From assembly GCA_016281275.1 (NCBI GenBank), contig JAEEIH010000219.1:1-33627 (forward strand): a stretch of 33,627 nucleotides of DNA. Direction: 5' to 3'. Below, piece after piece: positions 4,577 to 28,889 of the stretch. Within the stretch, counting starts at the first letter, position 1. Every line of letters begins with the position of its first letter. Under the pieces are notes generated by a model. It worked only from the letters and a program-made list of their open reading frames with translations. It was not told the DNA's origin and made no database searches. Position numbers and translations under genes: made by a program. The stretch comes from Lachnospiraceae bacterium (GTDB lineage: Bacteria; Bacillota; Clostridia; Lachnospirales; Lachnospiraceae).

Positions 4577-6007
4577 ATGACACAGAAAGCAAAAAGCAGC
4601 ATCTTTATAGTAATTCTTTCGGCGGTTCTTCTTGCCATCATAGGATGTTCAACGGGAGAAAGCAGTTACATCGAGCCGGTCAAGGAGCCGATGACATCGT
4701 CGGTTGATAAGGTTGACCCCGATCCGACTCCTTCCCCCACACCCACTCCCTTGGTTGATATGGAAGAGGGAACCTATGATATCGGCGAGATGCCGCTTTT
4801 TGCTATTGAAGGAACAGATTATGTTCCGTTCTCTTTCGGGCTTGAACAGCTTGACTCCGTGACTGCCGACGGAAAGACCGTTGTAAATGAAGCGGAAGAT
4901 GAACAGAGTGGATCCGAAGCATCCGGCGGTGAAGGCTCCGAGGAGTCCGGTGAAGAAGAATTAAAAGACGAAAAAGCTGTTTCCTCCGATGACGAGTCTG
5001 CGGAAAACCCGGAGGAAGAAGTCGAAGAAGAAAAAATCTACAACACGTACAAGATCGTTCTGAAGAGTGGCTTACAGTTCCGAGACGGAACGCCTGTTAC
5101 GGCCGATGACGTTCTTTTCAACATTTTGGCTCACTCGGCACGAGGGTATAAAGGAGACTACGATCTCAGCCGTCTTGACATTCCGGGAATGAGGGAATAC
5201 CACACCCAGATCCCCGAGGAGGAAAGAATAAGGGTTGAAAAGATCATCAACGCCGGCGGATTTGATATCGAGGAAGGAAAGTACCCCGAGATCGAAGGCG
5301 TAGATACCGCCGAGCAGGATGCGATATGGGGTTGCTACGACGAAGCGGGTCTGATCTTCGCACAGAATATCATCGATTACGTCAACTCCAATTATGCCCT
5401 CAATGCGTATGTTAACGCATTTATGTCCGGATATCTTACATATGCGAAGGTTGAAGCGAGTGAGAGCTTAAAAACAGCATTTGCATACATAGTATGGGGC
5501 TACGGAAGAAAAAAGAATCCGTACAACTACAGAAAAAACACACTTACCACTATTACGGACAAGGTGTTTGATCTCAATGAATATGAGCTGACGGCGATGG
5601 ATCTTTGGGAAGAGATCAAGGAATACTACAAAGGAGATCTTTCCGATGAGGGCATCAACAATGATGTGGTTCCGGGCGGGGATCCCATCGAAAAGCTGAT
5701 TGCGGATGTTTATTTTTCCAAGCAGGATTATAGGGTTGACGGCATCCGCGGAGTATTTAAGGGGATAACCCGTGAAGAAGGTTCGGTTGATGAAAGAGAG
5801 TGCATCTATCTGACGCTTTCGGATAAGGATGATATCGGCAGCTTTAATTTCTTCCTGACCGAACCCATGGAATTTGAGCGTACCGGCAGTCTTAACGATC
5901 CCGAAGTGATCGTCGAGATCGAAGAGGAGGAAAGCGAGGAAGAAGGAGAAGGTTCCGAAGGCGGCGAAGGATCGGAGGAAAATTCGCGGGATGGAGAGGA
6001 ATCATAA
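4577..6007 (+). CDS. Acidic lipoprotein with partial similarity to family-5 extracellular solute-binding proteins
   Basis: Signal peptide plus lipobox (LLAIIGCS); PTPSPTPTP linker; motif YKIVLKSGLQFRDGTPVTADDVLFNI resembles SBP_bac_5; Glu/Ser/Gly-rich segments in the middle and at the C-terminus. Confidence 0.7.
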   Translation: MTQKAKSSIFIVILSAVLLAIIGCSTGESSYIEPVKEPMTSSVDKVDPDPTPSPTPTPLVDMEEGTYDIGEMPLFAIEGTDYVPFSFGLEQLDSVTADGKTVVNEAEDEQSGSEASGGEGSEESGEEELKDEKAVSSDDESAENPEEEVEEEKIYNTYKIVLKSGLQFRDGTPVTADDVLFNILAHSARGYKGDYDLSRLDIPGMREYHTQIPEEERIRVEKIINAGGFDIEEGKYPEIEGVDTAEQDAIWGCYDEAGLIFAQNIIDYVNSNYALNAYVNAFMSGYLTYAKVEASESLKTAFAYIVWGYGRKKNPYNYRKNTLTTITDKVFDLNEYELTAMDLWEEIKEYYKGDLSDEGINNDVVPGGDPIEKLIADVYFSKQDYRVDGIRGVFKGITREEGSVDERECIYLTLSDKDDIGSFNFFLTEPMEFERTGSLNDPEVIVEIEEEESEEEGEGSEGGEGSEENSRDGEES

Positions 6008-7014
6008 TGAAGTGGACTAAGATTACATTAAATACTACTACGGAAGCTCTTGATTATCTGGGTGCCATTGCGATGGATCTCGGTCTTGAGGGATTTGAAA
6101 TTGAGGACAATGTGCCTCTTACAGAGGAAGATAAAAAGAGGATGTTCATTGACATTCTCCCCACGCTTCCCCCGGATGACGGCAGCGCACGAGTAAGTTT
6201 TTATGTTCCGAAAGATACCGATACGGAAAAGCTCCTTGAGGATATAAAGCGGGAAGCGGCAGATTATGAGAGCTTTTGTGATTTTGGGGCGATGACTTTT
6301 GATTTTGCAACGACCGACGACTCGGACTATATCAACAACTGGAAGAAATACTTCAAGTCCTTCAGAGTCAACGATCGCCTGGTGATAAAGCCCACATGGG
6401 AAGAAAAAGCACCCATGGCAAAGGACGGTGACACCGTTATCGAGATCGATCCCGGGACTGCTTTCGGTACCGGCGCGCATGAAACCACAAAGCTTTGCCT
6501 GCTCGCCATGAGCGAGAGGTTAAAAAAAGGCGATACTTGTATCGACATAGGATGCGGAAGCGGTATCCTTTCGATCGCCGCAATCCTTTTCGGGGCAAGA
6601 AATGCTTTTGGATTTGACGTCGATGACAATGCGTCAAAGATTTCGGTTGAAAACGCCGGTGTGAACAAGATCCCTGCCGAATACAGAGAAAGCTTTGATA
6701 AATGCGATATAGATGCGATAAAAGACGGGGAGATCCTTTTTGCAACCGGAAATCTTCTTGAATCGGAAGACCTTCCGAAATCACTTGAAGGTCATACTTT
6801 TGATTTTACCGCAGCCAACATCCTTGCCGACGTGATCATACCGTTGGCACCATATGCAAGAAAGCTGACAAGGACCGGTGGTTTTATCACTTGCTCCGGT
6901 ATTCTCACCACAAAGGAAGACTCTGTTGTAAAGGCGCTTGTCGAAAACGGCTTCGAGATTGTCGGGATCAAGCGCATGGGCGAATGGTCCGGTATTACTG
7001 CGAAGGCAGTTTAG
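6007..7014 (+). CDS. prmA: Ribosomal protein L11 methyltransferase PrmA
   Basis: IDPGTAFGTGAHETTKLCL and CIDIGCGSGILSIAA motifs; overlaps the preceding stop (ATAATG). Confidence 0.95.
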   Translation: MKWTKITLNTTTEALDYLGAIAMDLGLEGFEIEDNVPLTEEDKKRMFIDILPTLPPDDGSARVSFYVPKDTDTEKLLEDIKREAADYESFCDFGAMTFDFATTDDSDYINNWKKYFKSFRVNDRLVIKPTWEEKAPMAKDGDTVIEIDPGTAFGTGAHETTKLCLLAMSERLKKGDTCIDIGCGSGILSIAAILFGARNAFGFDVDDNASKISVENAGVNKIPAEYRESFDKCDIDAIKDGEILFATGNLLESEDLPKSLEGHTFDFTAANILADVIIPLAPYARKLTRTGGFITCSGILTTKEDSVVKALVENGFEIVGIKRMGEWSGITAKAV

Positions 7015-7034
7015 AGGAGGAACACGGAGTTAAA

Positions 7035-7790
7035 ATGCAGCACTTCCATATTGATCGTGAAATCCTTCCCGGAGAACGGATAGAGCTTTTCGGGGAAGAT
7101 CACAATCACATCAAAAATGTATTGCGCATGAAGCGCGGAGAGAAAGTCGTCATCAACGACACACAAGGACTCTCGCATATTTGTGCCCTTGCCGGTTTCG
7201 GCGAGGGCTGTTCTTGCTTTGATGAGGAAGAGCGCTTTCCGTGTGAAACCGAGCCGGCAGCAAGAATCGTTCTTTATCAGGGACTTCCCAAAAAAGACAA
7301 GATGGATCTTATAGTTGAGAAAGCCGTCGAACTCGGTGTTTCGCGGATTGTTCCCGTGATGACCGGTCGTGTGATCGTCAAAATAGAAGATGATAAAAAA
7401 GAAGCCAGAAAGCTTGAACGCTGGAATGCCATCTCAAAGAGCGCGGCCATGCAGTCGGGCAGGGGGATCATACCTACAGTTGATCGTCTGATGTCGTTTA
7501 ATCAGGCGCTGGAGGATGCAAGGAAGCTTGACAGAATTCTGATACCTTATGAGGAAAGCGACACGGTAGGATGTACGATGAAAAGCTCTCGTGAGGCAAT
7601 AAAGGGCCTTAGGGATGTTAAGAGTGTTGCTGTTTTTATCGGACCCGAAGGTGGTTTTGAGGCTGCAGAAGTACAGGAAGCCATGAGAGTCGGCGCTGTT
7701 CCCGTCAGTCTGGGGAAAAGGATACTACGGACCGAAACTGCCGGACTTGCGGCTCTTTCGATAATCATGTTCGAGCTTGAAGATCTGTGA
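7035..7790 (+). CDS. rsmE: 16S rRNA m3U1498 methyltransferase RsmE
   Basis: In-frame ATG at 7035; HIKNVLRMKRGE, QSGRGIIPTV, FIGPEGGFEAAEV, LGKRILRTETAGLAALSI. Confidence 0.93.
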   Translation: MQHFHIDREILPGERIELFGEDHNHIKNVLRMKRGEKVVINDTQGLSHICALAGFGEGCSCFDEEERFPCETEPAARIVLYQGLPKKDKMDLIVEKAVELGVSRIVPVMTGRVIVKIEDDKKEARKLERWNAISKSAAMQSGRGIIPTVDRLMSFNQALEDARKLDRILIPYEESDTVGCTMKSSREAIKGLRDVKSVAVFIGPEGGFEAAEVQEAMRVGAVPVSLGKRILRTETAGLAALSIIMFELEDL

Positions 7791-7943
7791 TATGCTGCGA
7801 CCGGTTATAACAGACGGGGATATAACGGGTAACACCGAAAGCGTTTTCGAGGAGACATTGACGAAGCGTTTACGGGAAGAGAAGTCTTGAACAGAAGTAC
7901 TCCGTGAGATTAATGATTCAAAAACCGAAAATGAGGAACAGAT

Positions 7944-9131
7944 ATGGAGATATATCTCGATAATGCAGCAACCACCAAGGTTTGCAAAATCGCCGTACAG
8001 GCTGCGCTCAACGCAATGCAGACCGATTGGGGAAATCCTTCGTCAAAGCACACCAAAGGGCTTGATGCGGGGAACATAATCAAGAACTCAGCAAAAACGA
8101 TAGCGGAAACTATAGATGTGAAGCCCACGGAGATCGTTTTTACTTCAGGCGGAACGGAGTCGAACAATATGGCTCTTGTCGGAGCTGCGCTCGCAGCCAA
8201 AAGACGCGGAAACCATGTAATTGCGTCAGGCTATGAACACGCATCCGTCTATAATCCTCTTATATCGCTTAGGGATTTCGGATTTGAAGTCGAATTTGCT
8301 CCTGTTGATGAACTCGGACACATTAAAATTGATGAGCTGACCGACATGATAAGACCGACAACGGTGCTTGTTTCCGTAATGTATGTCAACAACGAGGTTG
8401 GGGCGGTGAACGATATCGGCGCGATAGCAGAGGCTGTTCACGAAAAAAACAAGGACGTCATTTTTCACTGTGATGCGGTTCAGGCCTACGGTAAGTATGT
8501 TATTTACCCCGCCAGGCTCGGGATTGATCTCATGAGCGTGAGCGGTCACAAGATAAATGCGCCTAAAGGAAGCGGATTCCTATATGTGAAGGACGGCGTA
8601 AGGATAAGACCTCTCATATGGGGAGGCGGACAGCAAAAAGACAGGCGATCCGGAACGGAAAATGTGCCGGCGATCGCGGGACTTGCTGCGGCTGCAAGGC
8701 AATACTATAATGAACGGCGCGAAGCAACGGAGCGTCTTTATGAGCTGAAGACCATGTTCGTCAATGAACTTAAGGATATAAACGGCACACACGTACATGC
8801 TGTAAAACCGGAAGAAGACGGTTCGTTCAGTGAGGCGGAGGTGAGAAAGACGGCACCCCATATCGTCAGCGCCGGCTTTGAAGGCGCAAGAGCGGAGGTC
8901 CTTCTTCATGCGCTTGAACAGTCGGAGATTTACGTCTCATCGGGCTCGGCATGCTCAAGCAACCATCCCGGAATAAGCGGAACACTGAGGGCCATTGGCG
9001 TACCTAAGAATCTCCTTGACGCTACTCTAAGATTCAGCTTCTCGTTTTCGACGACACGCGAAGAACTCGAAAAAACAATTGAGGTACTTAAAGAAATTGT
9101 ACCGATCTACGCAAGATTTGCGAGAAAGTAA
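7944..9131 (+). CDS. Cysteine desulfurase (NifS/IscS-like class V aminotransferase)
   Basis: YLDNAATTKV, FTSGGTESNNMAL, SVSGHKINAPKGSGFLYV, SSGSACSSNHPG. Confidence 0.95.
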   Translation: MEIYLDNAATTKVCKIAVQAALNAMQTDWGNPSSKHTKGLDAGNIIKNSAKTIAETIDVKPTEIVFTSGGTESNNMALVGAALAAKRRGNHVIASGYEHASVYNPLISLRDFGFEVEFAPVDELGHIKIDELTDMIRPTTVLVSVMYVNNEVGAVNDIGAIAEAVHEKNKDVIFHCDAVQAYGKYVIYPARLGIDLMSVSGHKINAPKGSGFLYVKDGVRIRPLIWGGGQQKDRRSGTENVPAIAGLAAAARQYYNERREATERLYELKTMFVNELKDINGTHVHAVKPEEDGSFSEAEVRKTAPHIVSAGFEGARAEVLLHALEQSEIYVSSGSACSSNHPGISGTLRAIGVPKNLLDATLRFSFSFSTTREELEKTIEVLKEIVPIYARFARK

Positions 9132-9252
9132 GGATCGATACCGCCGGATCGGTTGATAAGGATTCGGACACGTGTGAACATCAGAAGAAAGCCCCGGTAC
9201 AAAAAGACGGATTTTATCGGAAAGACGGTTCTCTTTCAGGAAAGGAACAGAC

Positions 9253-10473
9253 ATGATATACAGAGCATTTTTGATCAAATACTCGGAAATTGGTATCAAA
9301 GGAAAGAACAGATATGTTTTTGAAGACGCGCTTTGCGCAAGAATCAATGAGAACCTTTCGCGGATTTCGGACGGTTTTGTGACAGTCAGGGAGCAGGGAA
9401 GGATATTTCTGTCATGTCCCGAGGACTACGACTACGATAGGACGGTCAGAGAGCTTAAGAAGATCTTTGGCGTTTGGGCTATCTGTCCGGTCAAGGTGAT
9501 TCCGGACAACAGTTTCGAGAGTCTTACTCAGGCTACGGGAGATTATGTCGAAGAGGTGTACGGCGACAAAGAGATCACCTTTAAGGTTGAGGCAAGACGT
9601 GCAGACAAACGTTATCCGATCGAATCTCCCAAAATCTGCGCCGACATGGGTGACTACCTTCTTCGCAGGTTCAAGAACCTTAAGGTTGACGTGCGTGATC
9701 CCCAGGTAAGGATCCATGTTGAGGTTCGCAACAACGCCTATGTTTATTCGGAGATCATCCGGGGACCCGGCGGAATGCCCGTCGGCGCAAACGGAAGGGC
9801 GATGCTCCTATTGTCGGGAGGAATCGACAGTCCGGTTGCCGGATATATGATAGCGAAGCGCGGAGTAACCGTCGATGCCGTCTATTTCCATGCGCCGCCT
9901 TACACAAGCGAGCAGGCGCTTCAGAAGGTTATCGACCTTGCGCAGATAATCAGCGCCTACACGGGTCCCATAAGGCTTCATGTGGTCAATTTTACCGACA
10001 TTCAGCTTGACATTATCGAGAAGTGCCCAAGAGATGAGCTCACCATTATCATGAGACGTTACATGATGAGGCTGGCTGAGCATTTTGCGCGTGAGTGCGG
10101 TTCGCTCGGACTTGTTACGGGAGAGAGCATCGGACAGGTTGCAAGCCAGACGATGCAGAGCCTTGCAGTGACAAACGCAGTTTGCGGGATGCCTGTCTAC
10201 AGACCGCTCATAGCTTTCGATAAGCAGGATATCATCGATATTTCTGAAAAGATAGGAACCTACGAGACTTCAATAGAGCCTTACGAGGATTGCTGCACGA
10301 TCTTTGTTGCCAAGCATCCCGTTACTAAGCCTTTGCTCCATGTTATAGAGAAGTCTGAGAAAAAACTCGAGGGTTCGGTTGAAGAGCTTGTTGAAAAAGC
10401 AATCAAAACAGTCAGGATCATTAACGTTACAAGCAGCCGTATCTACGATAAGGGGACTCCTTACGCTGAGTGA
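9253..10473 (+). CDS. thiI: tRNA 4-thiouridine synthetase ThiI (no rhodanese domain)
   Basis: N-terminal SEIGIKGKNR; PP-loop AMLLLSGGIDSPVAGYMIAKRG; paired with a cysteine desulfurase. Confidence 0.95.
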   Translation: MIYRAFLIKYSEIGIKGKNRYVFEDALCARINENLSRISDGFVTVREQGRIFLSCPEDYDYDRTVRELKKIFGVWAICPVKVIPDNSFESLTQATGDYVEEVYGDKEITFKVEARRADKRYPIESPKICADMGDYLLRRFKNLKVDVRDPQVRIHVEVRNNAYVYSEIIRGPGGMPVGANGRAMLLLSGGIDSPVAGYMIAKRGVTVDAVYFHAPPYTSEQALQKVIDLAQIISAYTGPIRLHVVNFTDIQLDIIEKCPRDELTIIMRRYMMRLAEHFARECGSLGLVTGESIGQVASQTMQSLAVTNAVCGMPVYRPLIAFDKQDIIDISEKIGTYETSIEPYEDCCTIFVAKHPVTKPLLHVIEKSEKKLEGSVEELVEKAIKTVRIINVTSSRIYDKGTPYAE

Positions 10474-10488
10474 TGATCAGACAAAAAT

Positions 10489-10515
10489 GGGCAGTACGCG
10501 TATTGCGTACTGCCC
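10489..10515 (-). terminator. Perfect 11-bp stem hairpin, likely intrinsic terminator for the minus-strand HPr-like gene
   Basis: GGGCAGTACGC-GTATT-GCGTACTGCCC; read on the minus strand it is followed by ATTTTTG. Lies between convergent thiI and the HPr-like gene. Confidence 0.8.
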
Positions 10516-10551
10516 GTGTTCTCAACTAATCGCGATTTCGCGCCTGCCTCA

Positions 10552-10782
10552 TCAAACGATGTAGGGCTTAAGAGCAGCGAGGATGTCGTCGATGTTATCC
10601 GATGCATGAATGTTAAGGTCAATCGGCTTTGAAAGATCAAGGCTGAAGATTCCCATGATAGATTTAGCGTCGATAACATATCTGCCTGAAACCAGGTCGA
10701 AGTCCGAATCAAATTTTGTTACGGCATTAACGAATGACTTTACCGCATCAATTGAGTTGAGATTGATTTTTACTGTCTTCAT
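10552..10782 (-). CDS. HPr-family phosphocarrier-like protein lacking the His15 active-site motif
   Basis: 76 aa; retains DAKSIMGIFSLDLSKPIDLNI (HPr Ser46 region KSIMGVMSLG); the GIHARPA motif is replaced by NSIDAVKSFV. SD AAAGGAGTG upstream. Confidence 0.85.
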   Translation of the reverse strand: MKTVKINLNSIDAVKSFVNAVTKFDSDFDLVSGRYVIDAKSIMGIFSLDLSKPIDLNIHASDNIDDILAALKPYIV

Positions 10783-10825
10783 AAAATCACACTCCTTTAT
10801 ATCAAATATTTGTATTTATGAGTAC

Positions 10826-10853
10826 AGTATAAAGGTTAATGTTTTTTTGTCAA
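10826..10853 (-). promoter_or_regulatory. Sigma-A-type promoter for the HPr-like gene
   Basis: Minus strand TTGACA (10853-10848), 16-nt spacer, TATACT (10831-10826). Confidence 0.75.
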
Positions 10854-10950
10854 GAGTAAACAATCCCGAAAAAAAGCGGCTTTGACCGTTGAAGATTGTC
10901 AGATATGCACTATAAACTTTTTGAAAAATGTGAATTATGAGGAAGAAAAG

Positions 10951-12312
10951 ATGAATGATATACCCTCGGTTCTTAAGGGCAAGAGAGCGGCTTTGTGCTC
11001 TTTGGGCTGCAAGGTTAACGCCTATGAAACCCAGGCCGTCAGAAAAATGCTCGAAGATAAGGGCGCCTTTATTGTAAGTGATGATGAGGATGCGGACATA
11101 TACGTGATCAACACATGTTCCGTCACGGGAATCGCCGACAAGAAATCAAGGCAGTCTGTCCACCACGCCATGAAGCTTAACGAAAAGGCGCTTATAGTTG
11201 TCACGGGCTGTTATGCACAGGCGGTCGGAAATGCCGCATTTGAGGACGATGATCGCGTCATTGTGATAGGAAGCAATCAAAAAGACGGGATAGTCGAAGC
11301 CATCGAGAATTGGTTTGGAGAACACAGAAACGCTACGATCGTTTCGGATCTTTTTACCGACAGGAAGTACATGGACCTCAGTATAGACGGTTTTAACGAT
11401 AAGACAAGAGCGTTCATCAAGGTAGAAGACGGGTGCGATCAGTTCTGTACTTATTGTATTATCCCGTATGTGCGCGGAAGAGTACGTTCGAGGAGTACGG
11501 AAGATGCGATAGCGGAGATCAGAGGTCTCGCCGGGGCGGGATATAAAGAAGTTGTTCTCACGGGGATTCATCTTTCGTCTTACGGACGTGAAGACTATGA
11601 CAGGAAAGCAGGTTTTGTGCACGGACCGCTTCTGCGGCTTATTCAGGAGACAGCCGCTGTTCCCGGGATAGAAAGGGTAAGACTCGGAAGTCTTGAGCCG
11701 CGTATCATAACCAAGGAATTTGCTGAAGAACTTGCCGGCATTAAGGAATTTTGCCCACAGTTTCACCTGTCGCTTCAGAACGGTTGTAACAGCGTGTTAA
11801 AGAGGATGAACCGTCATTATACGATCGAGGAATATGCCGAAAGGACAGAGGTGCTGCGCAAGACTTTCGACCGTCCGGCGATCACAACGGACGTCATAGC
11901 CGGATTCCCGGGAGAAACGGATGAGGAGTTTGAGAATTCCATAGCAAACCTTGAAAGGATCGGGTTTGCCAAGATGCATGTCTTTAGGTATTCGAAGCGA
12001 AAGGGCACTCCCGCCGCAGCGATGAAGGATCAGGTTCTGCCGCAGGTTTCCGCGGAAAGAAGCGACAGGCTCATAAGTCTTGATGCACGAATGCATGCGG
12101 CCTACCTGGGTTCGTTTGTCGGTCAGAAGGAAAAAATCCTTGTGGAGCGTATATTATCGGCAGACGGAAAGGTGTTTGCCAAGGGACTTACAACCAGGTA
12201 TGCGGATGTGGAGGCGGTCGTATCGGGTCATGCACCGGAAGTGAATTCGATCACAGAAGTCAGATGCGAGAGTGTATCGGACGAGGGTGTGATACTCGGG
12301 ACACTCCTATAA
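10951..12312 (+). CDS. mtaB: tRNA t6A37 methylthiotransferase MtaB (radical SAM)
   Basis: In-frame ATG at 10951 with upstream GAGGAAG; ALCSLGCKVNAYETQ, radical SAM DGCDQFCTYCIIPYVRGRVRSR, C-terminal TRAM-like region. The ORF track start (10882) is longer. Confidence 0.93.
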   Translation: MNDIPSVLKGKRAALCSLGCKVNAYETQAVRKMLEDKGAFIVSDDEDADIYVINTCSVTGIADKKSRQSVHHAMKLNEKALIVVTGCYAQAVGNAAFEDDDRVIVIGSNQKDGIVEAIENWFGEHRNATIVSDLFTDRKYMDLSIDGFNDKTRAFIKVEDGCDQFCTYCIIPYVRGRVRSRSTEDAIAEIRGLAGAGYKEVVLTGIHLSSYGREDYDRKAGFVHGPLLRLIQETAAVPGIERVRLGSLEPRIITKEFAEELAGIKEFCPQFHLSLQNGCNSVLKRMNRHYTIEEYAERTEVLRKTFDRPAITTDVIAGFPGETDEEFENSIANLERIGFAKMHVFRYSKRKGTPAAAMKDQVLPQVSAERSDRLISLDARMHAAYLGSFVGQKEKILVERILSADGKVFAKGLTTRYADVEAVVSGHAPEVNSITEVRCESVSDEGVILGTLL

Positions 12313-23474: not shown

Positions 23475-26180
23475 TTGATGAAAAATGACAATGTTAGAGA
23501 CAATGCGCTTTTTAAAACATCACACTTGATGATTCTCATAGCATATTCTTTGCTTTCGGTAGCGCTTATTGCCGAATCCCTGCTTATGGGTTGGGAAACC
23601 TGGATGGTTTATATTATCGGCATTTCGGTTCTCGGATGCTGGTTTATGCACGTTCAGAATGTTCTGACGCCATATCAGCGCCTTTGGGTATATTCTATAT
23701 TGATGATGGTAATCGCGGCTTTTTACGGCGTTCATCTTACCAGTACATATGACCTTGTGGGTGTTATTTCGGTTTGTATCGGATTGTTCACTCTGACCGG
23801 TGTTACGGCGCTGATATATTTGTGGCAGGTGACGTATTATCTGATTCTTGCCTATGATCTGGTACTTATGTGGAGTCAGGACTATCCATTTGACAGTCTG
23901 GTGATCTCGAGAACCATGCTCCATGTGTTCCTTATTGTCCTTGTGGGCTGGATATCCAGGATCATCATCAGGAGATGGGCAGAAATTCTTTATCGCTCCA
24001 AAGATGAAACCGAAATACTTCAGGGAGCTACCACGCGCCTGAATGATTTCCTTGCAAATGTATCACATGAGATCAGAACTCCGATCAATGCCGTTATCGG
24101 CCTTACCGATGTTTGTATTGAAAAAGTGGATAATCAGGATGTTCAAGAGGATCTGATTTCTGTCAAGGATGCAGGCAAACGTGTTGCGGAGCAGATCAGT
24201 GACATTTTGGATTATTCCGAGATAGACATGAAAAAGCTCGCTGTCAATGTGGAGCAGTACATGCTTTCTTCCGTTTTAAATGATGTTGTCACGGAAATGG
24301 CTTATATCAAACCGAAACATCTTGAACTTATTGTTGACGTGGATGCAGCATGTCCCGCTATGATGGTCACCGATGTTCCAAAGCTGAAAAAGATTTTATG
24401 GCACCTTATTTCCAACGGCTTGAAATATACAAAAGAAGGCGGCGTGTATGTTCATATATACTCCGTGACCCGTGAGTACGGCGTTAACCTTTGTATTGAA
24501 GTGGAAGATACGGGTATAGGTATGAGCCCGGAGGAGAGAGAGCACATCTACGAGCATTTCTATCAGGGCAATTCCGGAAGGACGAGGTCCACGAGCGGTC
24601 TCGGACTCGGTATGGCCATTGTTTCGGGATTTGTGAAGGTGCTCGGTGGTTTTATCATCATAGATTCCGAGCTCGGAAAAGGAACCAAGGTTAAGGTCTC
24701 CATTCCCCAGGATGTTATAGATCCGTCCAAGTGCATGTCTCTTAAGACAAAGGATGATATCAGCGTCGGAGCGTTCCTGCATTTTGATAAATTTGTCAAC
24801 CTTCAGGTTCGTGAATTTTATAACCTTATGGTTAAACACATCGTTCAGGGCCTCGGTGTCGTGATGCGCTGGGTTGAAACTGCGGACAAACTGCGTGAAT
24901 TGACGGATAACATGGAACTTACCCATTTGTTTGTGGGTGAAGAAGAATACATGGAGAATTCCGAGTTTATAGAAAGTCTTTCAAAGAGGATGGTTGTGGC
25001 CGTCATTGCCAATCCCAATTTCTGTCAGGTTCCCTGGTCGAAAATCAGGATATTACCGAAGCCGTTTTATTGCTTCCCTGTGGCAACCCTGCTTAACCAG
25101 GATCCTTCATTGGAAGAAAACAGAGTGGGCAGGCTCATGTGCAACGGCGTAAAAGCTCTGGTGGTTGACGACGAGCCCATGAATCACATGGTTGCCAACG
25201 GTATTTTCAGACGCTACGGCATGGAAGTATTTACGGCAAATTCAGGAAAAGAATCCATTGCCATGTGTGAGACCGACGATTACGATATCATTTTCATGGA
25301 TCATATGATGCCGGAGATGGACGGTATTGAGGCAATGAAACGTATCAGGACAGTTCTTTCGAGACGTCATAAAGATGTGCCCATAATCGCATTGACCGCA
25401 AATGCGGTAAGTACGGCGAAAAAAATGTTTCTCAGGGAGGGTTTCAACGGCTTTATCAGTAAGCCTATAGAGCTTTCGGAATTGGAGCGCGTACTTCGTA
25501 AAGTGATGCCCAAGGAGCTTTGCACCGATGTGTTTGAAACGGAAGAAGAGGCTTACGAGCGCACTGCGTCGAAAAAGACATCAGCGCAGTCCGAAAGCAA
25601 CAGGGAAGCAACAACGTCTCAGGAAATCATGTCCGAAGGCGTGCCGGAGCCGGATAAAACACTTTCTCCTTTGGAACAAGTGGCGGCTTTGGGTATCGAT
25701 ACAAAGACAGGTCTTTATTATTGCCAGAAAGACGAGGAATTTTACAGGAAGCTTCTTTTGCAATATGCCGGGGATGCTCCGAAGAAGCAGCAGGATGCCG
25801 AAAAATTCTTCGCCGGTAATGATTACCCCAATTATGAAATAGTTGTTCATGCTTTAAAGAGTACTTCCAAAATGATAGGCGCCGGAAAACTGAGCGAGTT
25901 GGCTTTGGCACTCGAAAATGCGGCTAAAGCCGAGGACGGTGAGTTTATCCGCACTCATCATGAGGCAGCCATGACCGAATACAAACGGCTGGTTGATGGA
26001 ATTATCAAAGCTTATGAAGAACCTGCGCAGGCTCAAAAGACCGAGGAAGTTGGGAATGCAGAGGATTCGGAATCGAACGGGGAAGATGAAGTTATGGAAT
26101 TTGCTCCCGATGACGAACCCGGCAATGACTCCGGGGGCGGCAATGACGAAGCTTTAGAGTTTTTGCCCGAGGAGGATTGA
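23475..26180 (+). CDS. Hybrid sensor histidine kinase: multi-TM sensor - HisKA - HATPase - degenerate REC-like region - REC - HPt
   Basis: 901 aa; LANVSHEIRTPINAVIGL H-box; EVEDTGIGMSPEER; LGLGMAIVSGFV; REC ALVVDDEPMNHMV...IIFMDHMMPEMDGIEAM; HPt-like IVVHALKSTSKMIGAGKLSELALALE. Confidence 0.93.
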   Translation: MMKNDNVRDNALFKTSHLMILIAYSLLSVALIAESLLMGWETWMVYIIGISVLGCWFMHVQNVLTPYQRLWVYSILMMVIAAFYGVHLTSTYDLVGVISVCIGLFTLTGVTALIYLWQVTYYLILAYDLVLMWSQDYPFDSLVISRTMLHVFLIVLVGWISRIIIRRWAEILYRSKDETEILQGATTRLNDFLANVSHEIRTPINAVIGLTDVCIEKVDNQDVQEDLISVKDAGKRVAEQISDILDYSEIDMKKLAVNVEQYMLSSVLNDVVTEMAYIKPKHLELIVDVDAACPAMMVTDVPKLKKILWHLISNGLKYTKEGGVYVHIYSVTREYGVNLCIEVEDTGIGMSPEEREHIYEHFYQGNSGRTRSTSGLGLGMAIVSGFVKVLGGFIIIDSELGKGTKVKVSIPQDVIDPSKCMSLKTKDDISVGAFLHFDKFVNLQVREFYNLMVKHIVQGLGVVMRWVETADKLRELTDNMELTHLFVGEEEYMENSEFIESLSKRMVVAVIANPNFCQVPWSKIRILPKPFYCFPVATLLNQDPSLEENRVGRLMCNGVKALVVDDEPMNHMVANGIFRRYGMEVFTANSGKESIAMCETDDYDIIFMDHMMPEMDGIEAMKRIRTVLSRRHKDVPIIALTANAVSTAKKMFLREGFNGFISKPIELSELERVLRKVMPKELCTDVFETEEEAYERTASKKTSAQSESNREATTSQEIMSEGVPEPDKTLSPLEQVAALGIDTKTGLYYCQKDEEFYRKLLLQYAGDAPKKQQDAEKFFAGNDYPNYEIVVHALKSTSKMIGAGKLSELALALENAAKAEDGEFIRTHHEAAMTEYKRLVDGIIKAYEEPAQAQKTEEVGNAEDSESNGEDEVMEFAPDDEPGNDSGGGNDEALEFLPEED

Positions 26181-26183
26181 GCC

Positions 26184-28889
26184 ATGAGAAAATATTTTGA
26201 ACGAAATCGTGAGACGGAAAAAGTTGTATACCAGTCTGCAGTAAAGGTTGACTTCTGGTTTTTCGTGGGGATCACCATATATGAGATCTTCCATATGGTA
26301 TATACTTTTGTTTTTGCGGAGGACTACGGCGAGCTCGTCATCTGGTCCAGGCTTTCCTATGGGATCTCGGGAGTGGCTACACTATTCTTTTCGGTGGCAT
26401 GTTTCTATGTCATGAAGGATTTTGAGAGGCGATATAAGATCCTCAAATATGCCAATATACTGAATACCTTCTCTTTATTGGGACTTTCGGTTGCCGTTAC
26501 GATACTTGACCAGATAAGGTCGGGGGTTATGGACACATCTCTTATCATCGTCATGTCGCTTATTATGCCGATGCTCCTTTACATGCCGCTGTCCGCATAT
26601 CTGACCATATTCCTTCTTACCAACGGATCGGTACTGTATTACTACATTACGCTGGCTATGCAAGACGGCGTGAAGTACAGAGCGGTCAAGTATTTCGCCA
26701 TTTACATGGTTATCTCGGTAATCTTAAGTATCATCGTAATGTATGTAAAATACAGTATGTACGCGAGAATACTCGAATCCAACAGGCAGAAGGACGAGAT
26801 CGAAAAACTGAATGCTGCGCAGAACCGTTTCTTTTCATCCATGAGCCATGAGATACGTACGCCCATAAACACCATCATCGGTCTTAACGAGATGATCCTG
26901 CGTGAAAATGTCTCCGAAGAGATCAACGAGGACGCGGCGAATATCAGATCTGCCGGCAATATGCTCCTTCACCTCATTAACGACATCCTCGATATGTCAA
27001 AGCTCGATTCGGGGCAGATGGAGCTGACCCCCGTATCGTACAGAACCGGAGATATGCTCTCCGATATTGTGGGAATGCTCTGGATACGTGCAAAGGATAA
27101 GGGACTGGAGTTTAAGATCGATGTTGCTCCCGATCTTCCGGGTGAGTTGTTCGGTGACGAGGTCAGAATCAAGCAGATCCTTATAAACGTTTTAAACAAC
27201 GCTATCAAGTACACCAAAGAGGGATCGGTTACATTAAATATCCAGTGCAGAAGAGAAGAAAGCAATAACGTTACGGTTATTTATTCCGTTTCGGATACGG
27301 GTATGGGTATCAAAAAGGAGAGCATCCCGTATCTGTTCACCGCATTTAAGCGGGTTGACGAGACTAAAAACAGGTACATTGAAGGAACGGGTCTGGGACT
27401 CTCTATCGTTAAGCAGCTCGTCGATATCATGGGCGGTAAGATAACCGTCAACTCCGTTTATACAAAGGGAACCACATTTATCATAGAAATCCCTCAAAGA
27501 TCGGTATCGGGAAGTACCATAGGTGCGATAGACCTTTCGAAGCGCAGCAGCATCATGCACATGGAAAGCTATCATCAGAGCTTTGAGGCGCCTGAGGCCA
27601 ATGTCCTTGTTGTGGATGATACCGAGACCAATCTTATGGTCGTTGAGAAGCTCCTTCGCGGTACAAAGGTCAATGTTGTTACTGCAAACAGCGCAAGAGC
27701 GGCTCTTAAAAAAACGGTTGAGATGCAGTTCCACGTTATATTTATGGATCACCTTATGCCGGAAATCGACGGCGTCGAATGTATGCACATGATCCGCGAC
27801 CAAAAGGGCGGACTCTGCAGAGAATCGAAGATCGTTGCCCTTACCGCCAATGCCGGCGGTGATATCAAGGCTCTTTATGTAAGAGAAGGATTTGATGGTT
27901 ATCTGGTTAAACCGGTAAGCGGAGAGGCTCTTGAAAATGAGCTTCGACGTCTTCTTCCGAAAGAACTTGTTACGGTTACCACCGGCGGAGGAGAGATTGT
28001 CGAAGAGAGTACCCTTTGGATCAAAGATCACCAGGCCAAGGCAGAGGTTGTTATTACGGCGGAATCCGTTGCCGATATTCCGCAGGAACTCGTGGACAGG
28101 TATCATATCAAGGTTGTTCCTCATTTGGTAAGCACGGAGGCGGGTATTTTCCAGGATGGACTTGAAATCGACACCACAGGGCTACTGTCATACATGGAAG
28201 ATGAAAACAAATTTGCAATAACCCTGGCTCCCGATGTTGCCTATCATGAAGCATTTTTTGCAAAACAGCTGGAGCATGCAAACAACGTGATTCATATCTC
28301 GATATCCTCCGCAATGGAGAGGTCGGCGTGTCACGCGGCGGCCGAAGCGTGCAAGTCATTTGACAATGTATTTGTTATAGATTCCGGACACCTTTCGAGC
28401 GGTCAGGGTCTCCTTACAATCGAAGCTGCCAGACTTGCGGAAGAGGGATACGGTGCCACGGAGATTGTGGAAAGGATTCTCGCTTGCAGAGAAAGGGTTC
28501 ACACCAGCTTTATGGTTGATTCCATGGACTACCTTGCAAGAGCCGGGCAGATCGGCAAGAAAACGGCGGATATCGTAAAGGCCCTCATGATCCGACCTGT
28601 ACTTGCCATGAAGAAAGGGAAGCTTTCATTGGGCGGTTTTTATTTCGGAAGCAGGGATGGCGCATGGAAAAGATATATCTCGTCGGCTCTCAATACGATC
28701 AATAAGATAGACACCCGTATGCTGTTTGTTACATACGTCAGTCTTAATGAAAAAGAGAAAAAAGAAATTGCCGATGAGATAGCCAAAAAGATGAGCTTTG
28801 ACAAAATCTACTTTCATCAGGCATCTCCGGTCATAGCGGTTAATTGCGGTCCGGGAACTTTCGGGTTGTTGTTCATGACCGAAAAGTAA
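26184..28889 (+). CDS. Hybrid histidine kinase fused to a DegV-like domain: multi-TM sensor - HisKA - HATPase - REC - DegV
   Basis: 901 aa; SSMSHEIRTPINTIIGL; SVSDTGMGIKKESIPYLF; GTGLGLSIVKQLV; REC NVLVVDDTETNLMV...IFMDHLMPEIDGVECM; C-terminal ~280 aa matches the DegV pattern (VVITAESVADIPQELVDRYHIKVVPHLV, IHISISSAMERSACHAAAEA, VFVIDSGHLSSGQGLLTIEAARLAEEG, MDYLARAGQIGK, GPGTFGLLF). Confidence 0.9.
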   Translation: MRKYFERNRETEKVVYQSAVKVDFWFFVGITIYEIFHMVYTFVFAEDYGELVIWSRLSYGISGVATLFFSVACFYVMKDFERRYKILKYANILNTFSLLGLSVAVTILDQIRSGVMDTSLIIVMSLIMPMLLYMPLSAYLTIFLLTNGSVLYYYITLAMQDGVKYRAVKYFAIYMVISVILSIIVMYVKYSMYARILESNRQKDEIEKLNAAQNRFFSSMSHEIRTPINTIIGLNEMILRENVSEEINEDAANIRSAGNMLLHLINDILDMSKLDSGQMELTPVSYRTGDMLSDIVGMLWIRAKDKGLEFKIDVAPDLPGELFGDEVRIKQILINVLNNAIKYTKEGSVTLNIQCRREESNNVTVIYSVSDTGMGIKKESIPYLFTAFKRVDETKNRYIEGTGLGLSIVKQLVDIMGGKITVNSVYTKGTTFIIEIPQRSVSGSTIGAIDLSKRSSIMHMESYHQSFEAPEANVLVVDDTETNLMVVEKLLRGTKVNVVTANSARAALKKTVEMQFHVIFMDHLMPEIDGVECMHMIRDQKGGLCRESKIVALTANAGGDIKALYVREGFDGYLVKPVSGEALENELRRLLPKELVTVTTGGGEIVEESTLWIKDHQAKAEVVITAESVADIPQELVDRYHIKVVPHLVSTEAGIFQDGLEIDTTGLLSYMEDENKFAITLAPDVAYHEAFFAKQLEHANNVIHISISSAMERSACHAAAEACKSFDNVFVIDSGHLSSGQGLLTIEAARLAEEGYGATEIVERILACRERVHTSFMVDSMDYLARAGQIGKKTADIVKALMIRPVLAMKKGKLSLGGFYFGSRDGAWKRYISSALNTINKIDTRMLFVTYVSLNEKEKKEIADEIAKKMSFDKIYFHQASPVIAVNCGPGTFGLLFMTEK

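Follow-up and report, generated by a model that had tools for sequence, protein, structure and literature searches.

Two tandem hybrid kinases with one HPt between them

Do two adjacent hybrid histidine kinases that carry a single HPt domain between them act as one signalling system and, if so, where does the signal go? The question is raised by two long open reading frames, K1 and K2, that lie next to each other on the forward strand of a 33,627-nucleotide stretch of DNA (the whole of which we call the window) from a rumen Lachnospiraceae bacterium. From the ORFs, Pfam and an ortholog alignment, K1 (23478..26180; 900 aa) is a membrane hybrid histidine kinase with the order TM-HisKA-HATPase-pseudoREC-REC-HPt, and K2 (26184..28889; 901 aa) is a membrane hybrid kinase with the order TM-HisKA-HATPase-REC-DegV, without HPt. 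The original prediction, made from the DNA letters alone, gave both proteins 901 aa, which holds for K2; K1 reaches this length only with TTG 23475 as its start, but the next codon, ATG 23478, is preceded by GAGGGA, is the likelier start and gives 900 aa. The tandem order, the short gap and the second ribosome-binding site inside the first gene were all seen as predicted: K1 stops at TGA 26178-26180, followed by GCC and by the K2 ATG at 26184 (gap of 3 nt), and the K2 Shine-Dalgarno sequence, GAGGAGGA (26169..26176, forward strand), lies within the last codons of K1, its AGGAGG ending 8 nt ahead of the K2 ATG. No response regulator (RR) gene adjoins the pair in the window, in agreement with the earlier remark that no DNA-binding regulator lies nearby.

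Pfam calls, all above gathering scores, place in K1 a HisKA domain (24039..24227; phospho-acceptor His codon 24066-24068), a HATPase_c catalytic domain (24372..24710), a receiver (Response_reg, 25158..25493; phospho-Asp codon 25299-25301) and an Hpt domain (25668..26015; 28.1 bits, cut-off 24.6). The latter is a four-helix domain by Pfam, tree and model, and its phospho-His codon (25848-25850) lies in VVHALKSTSKMIGA. K2 has HisKA (26817..27014, with His222), HATPase_c (27153..27500), a receiver (27603..27944; phospho-Asp522 codon 27747-27749; Pfam, alignment and REC tree) and, after a spacer of only ~35 aa, DegV (28047..28880; 159 bits), with no Hpt found by Pfam. Both C-terminal ends, REC then HPt in K1 and REC then DegV in K2, are as first described, and both proteins are multi-TM. 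The signature residues of a hybrid-kinase phosphorelay (HisKA His, HATPase N and G boxes, REC Asp and Lys, HPt His) are present. In the ortholog alignment the HisKA His is found in 95/95 K1 proteins and the REC Asp in 94/94, and among K2 proteins the HisKA His is found in 87 and the REC Asp in 88/89. With these residues intact, each kinase would be expected to autophosphorylate and to load its own REC.

A further K1 domain was missed both by Pfam and by the original prediction. AlphaFold models of K1 and K2, built as monomers from 14-sequence alignments, show a (beta-alpha)5 fold at about aa 429-540 of K1 (24762..25097), which has REC topology and a conserved KPF at strand 5, lacks the phospho-Asp and is hence called here a pseudo-receiver. 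The K1 model also contains the HPt four-helix bundle, and its best whole-model fold match in the PDB is ShkA (6qrj). In the K2 model (overall pLDDT 69) the membrane part is poor and the DegV fold is confident, its PDB matches being FakB/DegV structures, with TMt mostly 0.82-0.86.

Conservation of the pair across Lachnospiraceae

The original prediction could be checked by asking whether the two genes always co-occur. In a survey of 397 Lachnospiraceae genomes (cut-offs E<=1e-160 for K2 and E<=1e-85 for K1), K2 was found in 64 genomes (81 matches) and K1 in 76. K2 is seldom without its partner: K1 or its contig-edge fragment lies directly upstream in 75 of the 81 K2 matches. For K2, the outcome named in the original prediction as a refutation, either gene often being present alone, was not observed. 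K1 itself is directly upstream on the same strand in 71, while in L086 and L182 the paired K1 scores below the match threshold and in L030 and L179 the C-terminal end of a K1 sits at the contig edge, ahead of K2. Three of the six remaining matches (L097, L139, L180) reach a contig end or lie within ~140 nt of it. The K2 of L112 lies behind a REC gene on a short contig, and L124 holds a tandem K2 duplication (HK-REC-DegV twice, 5751-11140) behind an HPt kinase without pseudo-receiver. The reverse association is less strict: behind four K1s a stand-alone DegV gene takes the place of a full K2, in L133 K1 is followed by frameshift-split HK-REC and DegV, and no DegV was found beside four low-scoring K1s (L129, L132, L138, L143).

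The tandem arrangement is not due to chance: it is seen in 78 tandem pairs, 73 of which have gaps of <=60 nt. A second, paralogous pair (46/57% identity) is present in the same genome, on contig C188. In a 399-genome sample of the phylum, matches were obtained only within Lachnospiraceae, and named relatives are rumen and gut members of the family, including isolate NC2004. The K1 of NC2004 (L098:6509-9010; L222) is frameshift-split in the assembly, either in reality or by a sequencing error, and its K2 is intact. Tree distances of K1 and K2 are correlated (r=0.46 with L144, 0.80 without its long branch; permutations <=0.16), a correlation that linked inheritance alone would also give. By these comparisons we judge K1-K2 to be an ancient unit of the family, and the pair is almost certainly a functional unit. 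Roughly a sixth of the genomes sampled from this major gut and rumen family carry it.

One HPt per pair, carried by either partner

Across the 78 tandem pairs, the HPt is on K1 only in 61, on K2 only in 14, on both in none, and on neither visibly in three; of the latter, L130 and L163 are cut off by the contig end and L148 has a frameshifted K1 with its HPt in the next ORF. The HPt has changed its location at least twice, and the K1 and K2 trees place these changes in the same lineages (starred branches force two changes). The larger K2-HPt clade (13 rows) is nested within K1-HPt pairs, in unrooted trees, which suggests a change from K1 to K2; the second switch is represented by one complete locus only (L144). 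The HPts of K2 group with those of neighbouring hybrid kinases (95% SH-aLRT, for a short domain). This grouping speaks against a simple transfer of the K1 HPt onto K2, an explanation we rejected, and it is likelier that K1 lost its HPt and K2 gained another one, a replacement rather than a moved segment.

Locus L144 is informative in another way. Its K1 has no HPt, and its K2 has DegV and HPt but neither the HisKA His nor a REC. Phosphate from within the pair could therefore arrive at this HPt only in trans. Because the HPt is found in one partner only and has switched partner at least twice, we favour a shared HPt: it is likely that the domain serves the pair in trans. Both RECs would use the single HPt, here that of K1, with K2 doing so across the protein boundary, as the mutually exclusive placement suggests. 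The idea of two kinases sharing one HPt, put forward in the original prediction, is the best reading of the assessed pairs, which carry one HPt in either partner. HPt switching between partner genes also provides a natural experiment for trans phosphotransfer.

The K2 REC could use another HPt of the genome, which (at 82.6% completeness) has ~10 other HPt matches and some 50 REC domains. This richness in HPt, REC and kinase genes also suits two independent hybrid kinases that share an operon and have their own partners elsewhere. We regard such independence as very improbable, since HPt placement is mutually exclusive with at least two coordinated switches, a paralogous pair exists in the genome, and K2 almost never occurs without K1.

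Other proteins were noted near these domains. Beside K2-HPt pairs lie ~250-aa proteins with an uncharacterised N-terminal half and a C-terminal REC (L087:12254-13030, L090:12396-13151 and similar), and L111:3-3014 is a contig-edge K1 with two HPt matches, a possible exception to the one-HPt pattern.

Upstream genes and the output of the pair

The original prediction had pictured a possible self-contained relay with the K2 REC as terminal receiver. Neither part agrees with the gene neighbourhoods and the REC tree. In 51/81 loci the gene immediately upstream of K1 encodes an RR, against 35/612 for the other neighbour positions; the loci are related, so that a p-value overstates this contrast. 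These regulators are c-di-GMP enzymes (REC-HD-GYP, REC-GGDEF) or single-REC proteins. Pfam assigned Response_reg to 53, HD_5 to 23, GGDEF to 10 and MCPsignal to 8 of the 73 upstream genes, and found no DNA-binding RR among them. The REC of K2 is 41% identical to K1 RECs, 40% to other hybrid RECs and 31% to RR RECs. In the tree it falls outside the RR clade, among the intermediate RECs of hybrid kinases, and the RECs of output regulators form their own side. Being nearer to hybrid RECs and outside the RR clade, it is most simply read as passing phosphate to the HPt. The REC of ShkA lacks the Rec-inter motif of PMC9981736.

Together, neighbourhood and tree make it fairly probable that the output runs through a separate RR, to which the HPt would pass its phosphate and which in most relatives would be the product of the gene directly upstream of K1. 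The window locus and most of its close relatives have no upstream RR; in L224 a REC gene that overlaps K1 is still present. Since the upstream RR is missing here and in most close relatives, the regulator of the window locus would be encoded elsewhere or shared with the C188 pair, which a REC-HD-GYP gene adjoins. Upstream of this paralogous pair there is also a 1365-aa protein (L009:7881-11978; G000:C188) with two sensor halves, HK, REC and HPt, and with a low-complexity linker in which DDVKQ/PDDVKQ units recur.

In eight loci (L122, L128, L165, L166, L168, L171-L173) the gene directly upstream of K1-K2 is an MCP gene. CheW and CheA follow further upstream in L122, and in most other MCP loci the gene sizes are similar and a CheA-like HK is present, suggesting a chemosensory link.

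The amino acid ABC transporter next to the pair had been named as a possible partner. Among relatives of 79-86% identity only L219 keeps the transporter, and elsewhere only L009 and L109 have an SBP_bac_3 gene immediately after the pair. We rejected the transporter as a general partner, its neighbour position not being conserved.

A divergent DegV domain

DegV had been proposed as the output of the relay. In FakB, His270 is part of the network that holds the fatty-acid carboxylate (PMC8892158), and the reaction with FakA depends on Arg173 (PMC9136124). Both residues are retained by the stand-alone DegVs found in related genomes (33/33 each), and Thr62/Ser and Ser95 are nearly invariant in them, in columns that are less certain. 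Of 87 K2 DegVs, 78 have Asn and 2 have His at the His270 position, and 35 keep Arg173. The K2 of the window has Asn887 (28842-28844) at the His270-equivalent and Gln789 (28548-28550) at the Arg173-equivalent position, and stand-alone DegVs adjacent to K1 likewise have Asn at the His270 position (5/5). FakB Arg205 is apparently lost as well, in a region where the alignment is uncertain by one or two residues, and we do not rely on it. The source genome has two FakA genes and ordinary or FakB-like DegV genes elsewhere, the FakA and FakB-like ones being intact. The FakA (YloV) genes are at G000:C52:48821-50467 and G000:C22:30068-31729, the second followed by a 195-aa DegV match.

The domain is also mobile, lying C-terminal to the kinase, N-terminal to it, or in a separate gene. 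It precedes the membrane part in the K2 variants L130:5431-8304 and L144:3947-6829, the latter with a degenerate kinase motif (NMSNELRSPIE) and without REC, and it stands beside K1 without any REC in L127, L131, L136 and L142. From residues and positions we consider the K2 DegV a separate, signalling-associated subfamily whose pocket may still bind lipid. A FakA-dependent output seems unlikely, and DegV as a FakB-type output was discarded on the lost residues and the separate FakA and FakB genes. Because the domain is mobile, we lean moderately towards a role as input or adaptor: DegV would be a repurposed fatty-acid-binding fold and not a metabolic output.

Two alternatives assign K2 other roles. 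In the first, along the route of the original prediction, phosphate would pass from the K1 His to the K1 REC, the K1 HPt and then the K2 REC, which would control DegV as a FakB-like lipid output. The single HPt per pair, the intact K2 REC Asp (88/89) and the fatty-acid-binding fold suit this route, but K2 has its own kinase, so that loading in cis is the simplest assumption for its REC, and that REC, as described above, groups with intermediate RECs; DegV occurs without a REC or at the N-terminus, its FakB residues are lost, and a separate RR adjoins most pairs. We hold this route to be quite improbable. In the second, K2 would be mainly a regulator that heterodimerises with K1, like RetS with GacS, the ligand state of DegV setting K1 activity and phosphotransfer by the K2 REC being secondary. 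The two kinases are produced together and both sit in the membrane, stand-alone DegV genes take the place of K2 beside K1, and the L144 K2 is still paired although its HisKA His and its REC are missing. Almost every K2 nevertheless retains His222 and Asp522, which argues for an active K2 relay and leaves the heterodimer rather unlikely.

A probable two-kinase sensor system

The pair looks like one two-kinase sensor system and not like a regulator of lipid metabolism. Taken as a whole, the proposal of one signalling unit formed by K1 and K2, with one HPt, a separate RR and DegV as input or adaptor, is one we hold with moderate confidence from the sequence comparisons. More tentatively, we can imagine a Lachnospiraceae-specific module in which DegV, with its Asn, reports a lipid or hydrophobic ligand to the two-kinase, one-HPt relay, which would feed c-di-GMP turnover or chemotaxis and possibly receive c-di-GMP feedback through the K1 pseudo-receiver. 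If true, DegV, familiar as a carrier of fatty acids for FakA, would gain a signalling role and be tied to the control of c-di-GMP and chemotaxis in gut Firmicutes. No paper linking DegV to histidine kinases was found in the open-access literature searched, which leaves most subscription journals outside.

Comparison with known systems

Four known systems share features with the pair. In Xanthomonas, RpfC/RpfG senses DSF, a fatty acid signal (PMC5391125). Like RpfC, K1 is a hybrid kinase with several TM helices, a REC and an HPt, and many of its relatives have a REC-HD-GYP gene directly upstream, matching the HD-GYP regulator RpfG. However, K1 has an additional pseudo-receiver and comes with a second hybrid kinase to which DegV is attached, and the adjacent REC-HD-GYP gene is absent in the window, HD_5 being found in 23/73 upstream genes of relatives, including that of the C188 paralog.

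In the Rcs phosphorelay (RcsC/RcsD/RcsB), the HPt is on one of two related membrane kinase-like proteins and is used in trans (PMC7418988), and RcsC also carries a pseudo-receiver (PMC7010744). The HPt distribution of K1-K2, on one of two partner membrane proteins, would fit a similar use in trans, and the L144 K2, a dead kinase with an HPt, resembles RcsD. In most K1-K2 pairs, by contrast, both kinases look active. Either of them may carry the HPt, and in place of a DNA-binding RcsB the RRs nearby are c-di-GMP enzymes or single RECs.

ShkA is a Caulobacter hybrid kinase (6qrj) whose pseudo-receiver binds c-di-GMP (PMC7010744). K1 has the same HK-pseudoREC-REC order, with the pseudo-receiver between CA and REC, whereas ShkA has neither its own HPt nor a paired DegV kinase. 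The K2 DegV shares its fold and Pfam family with FakB/DegV proteins but is fused to a kinase, with Asn in place of His270 and Arg173 mostly replaced. On the features tested, we do not class K1-K2 with RpfC/RpfG, Rcs or ShkA. By the literature searched, this two-kinase signalling system seems not to have been described before.
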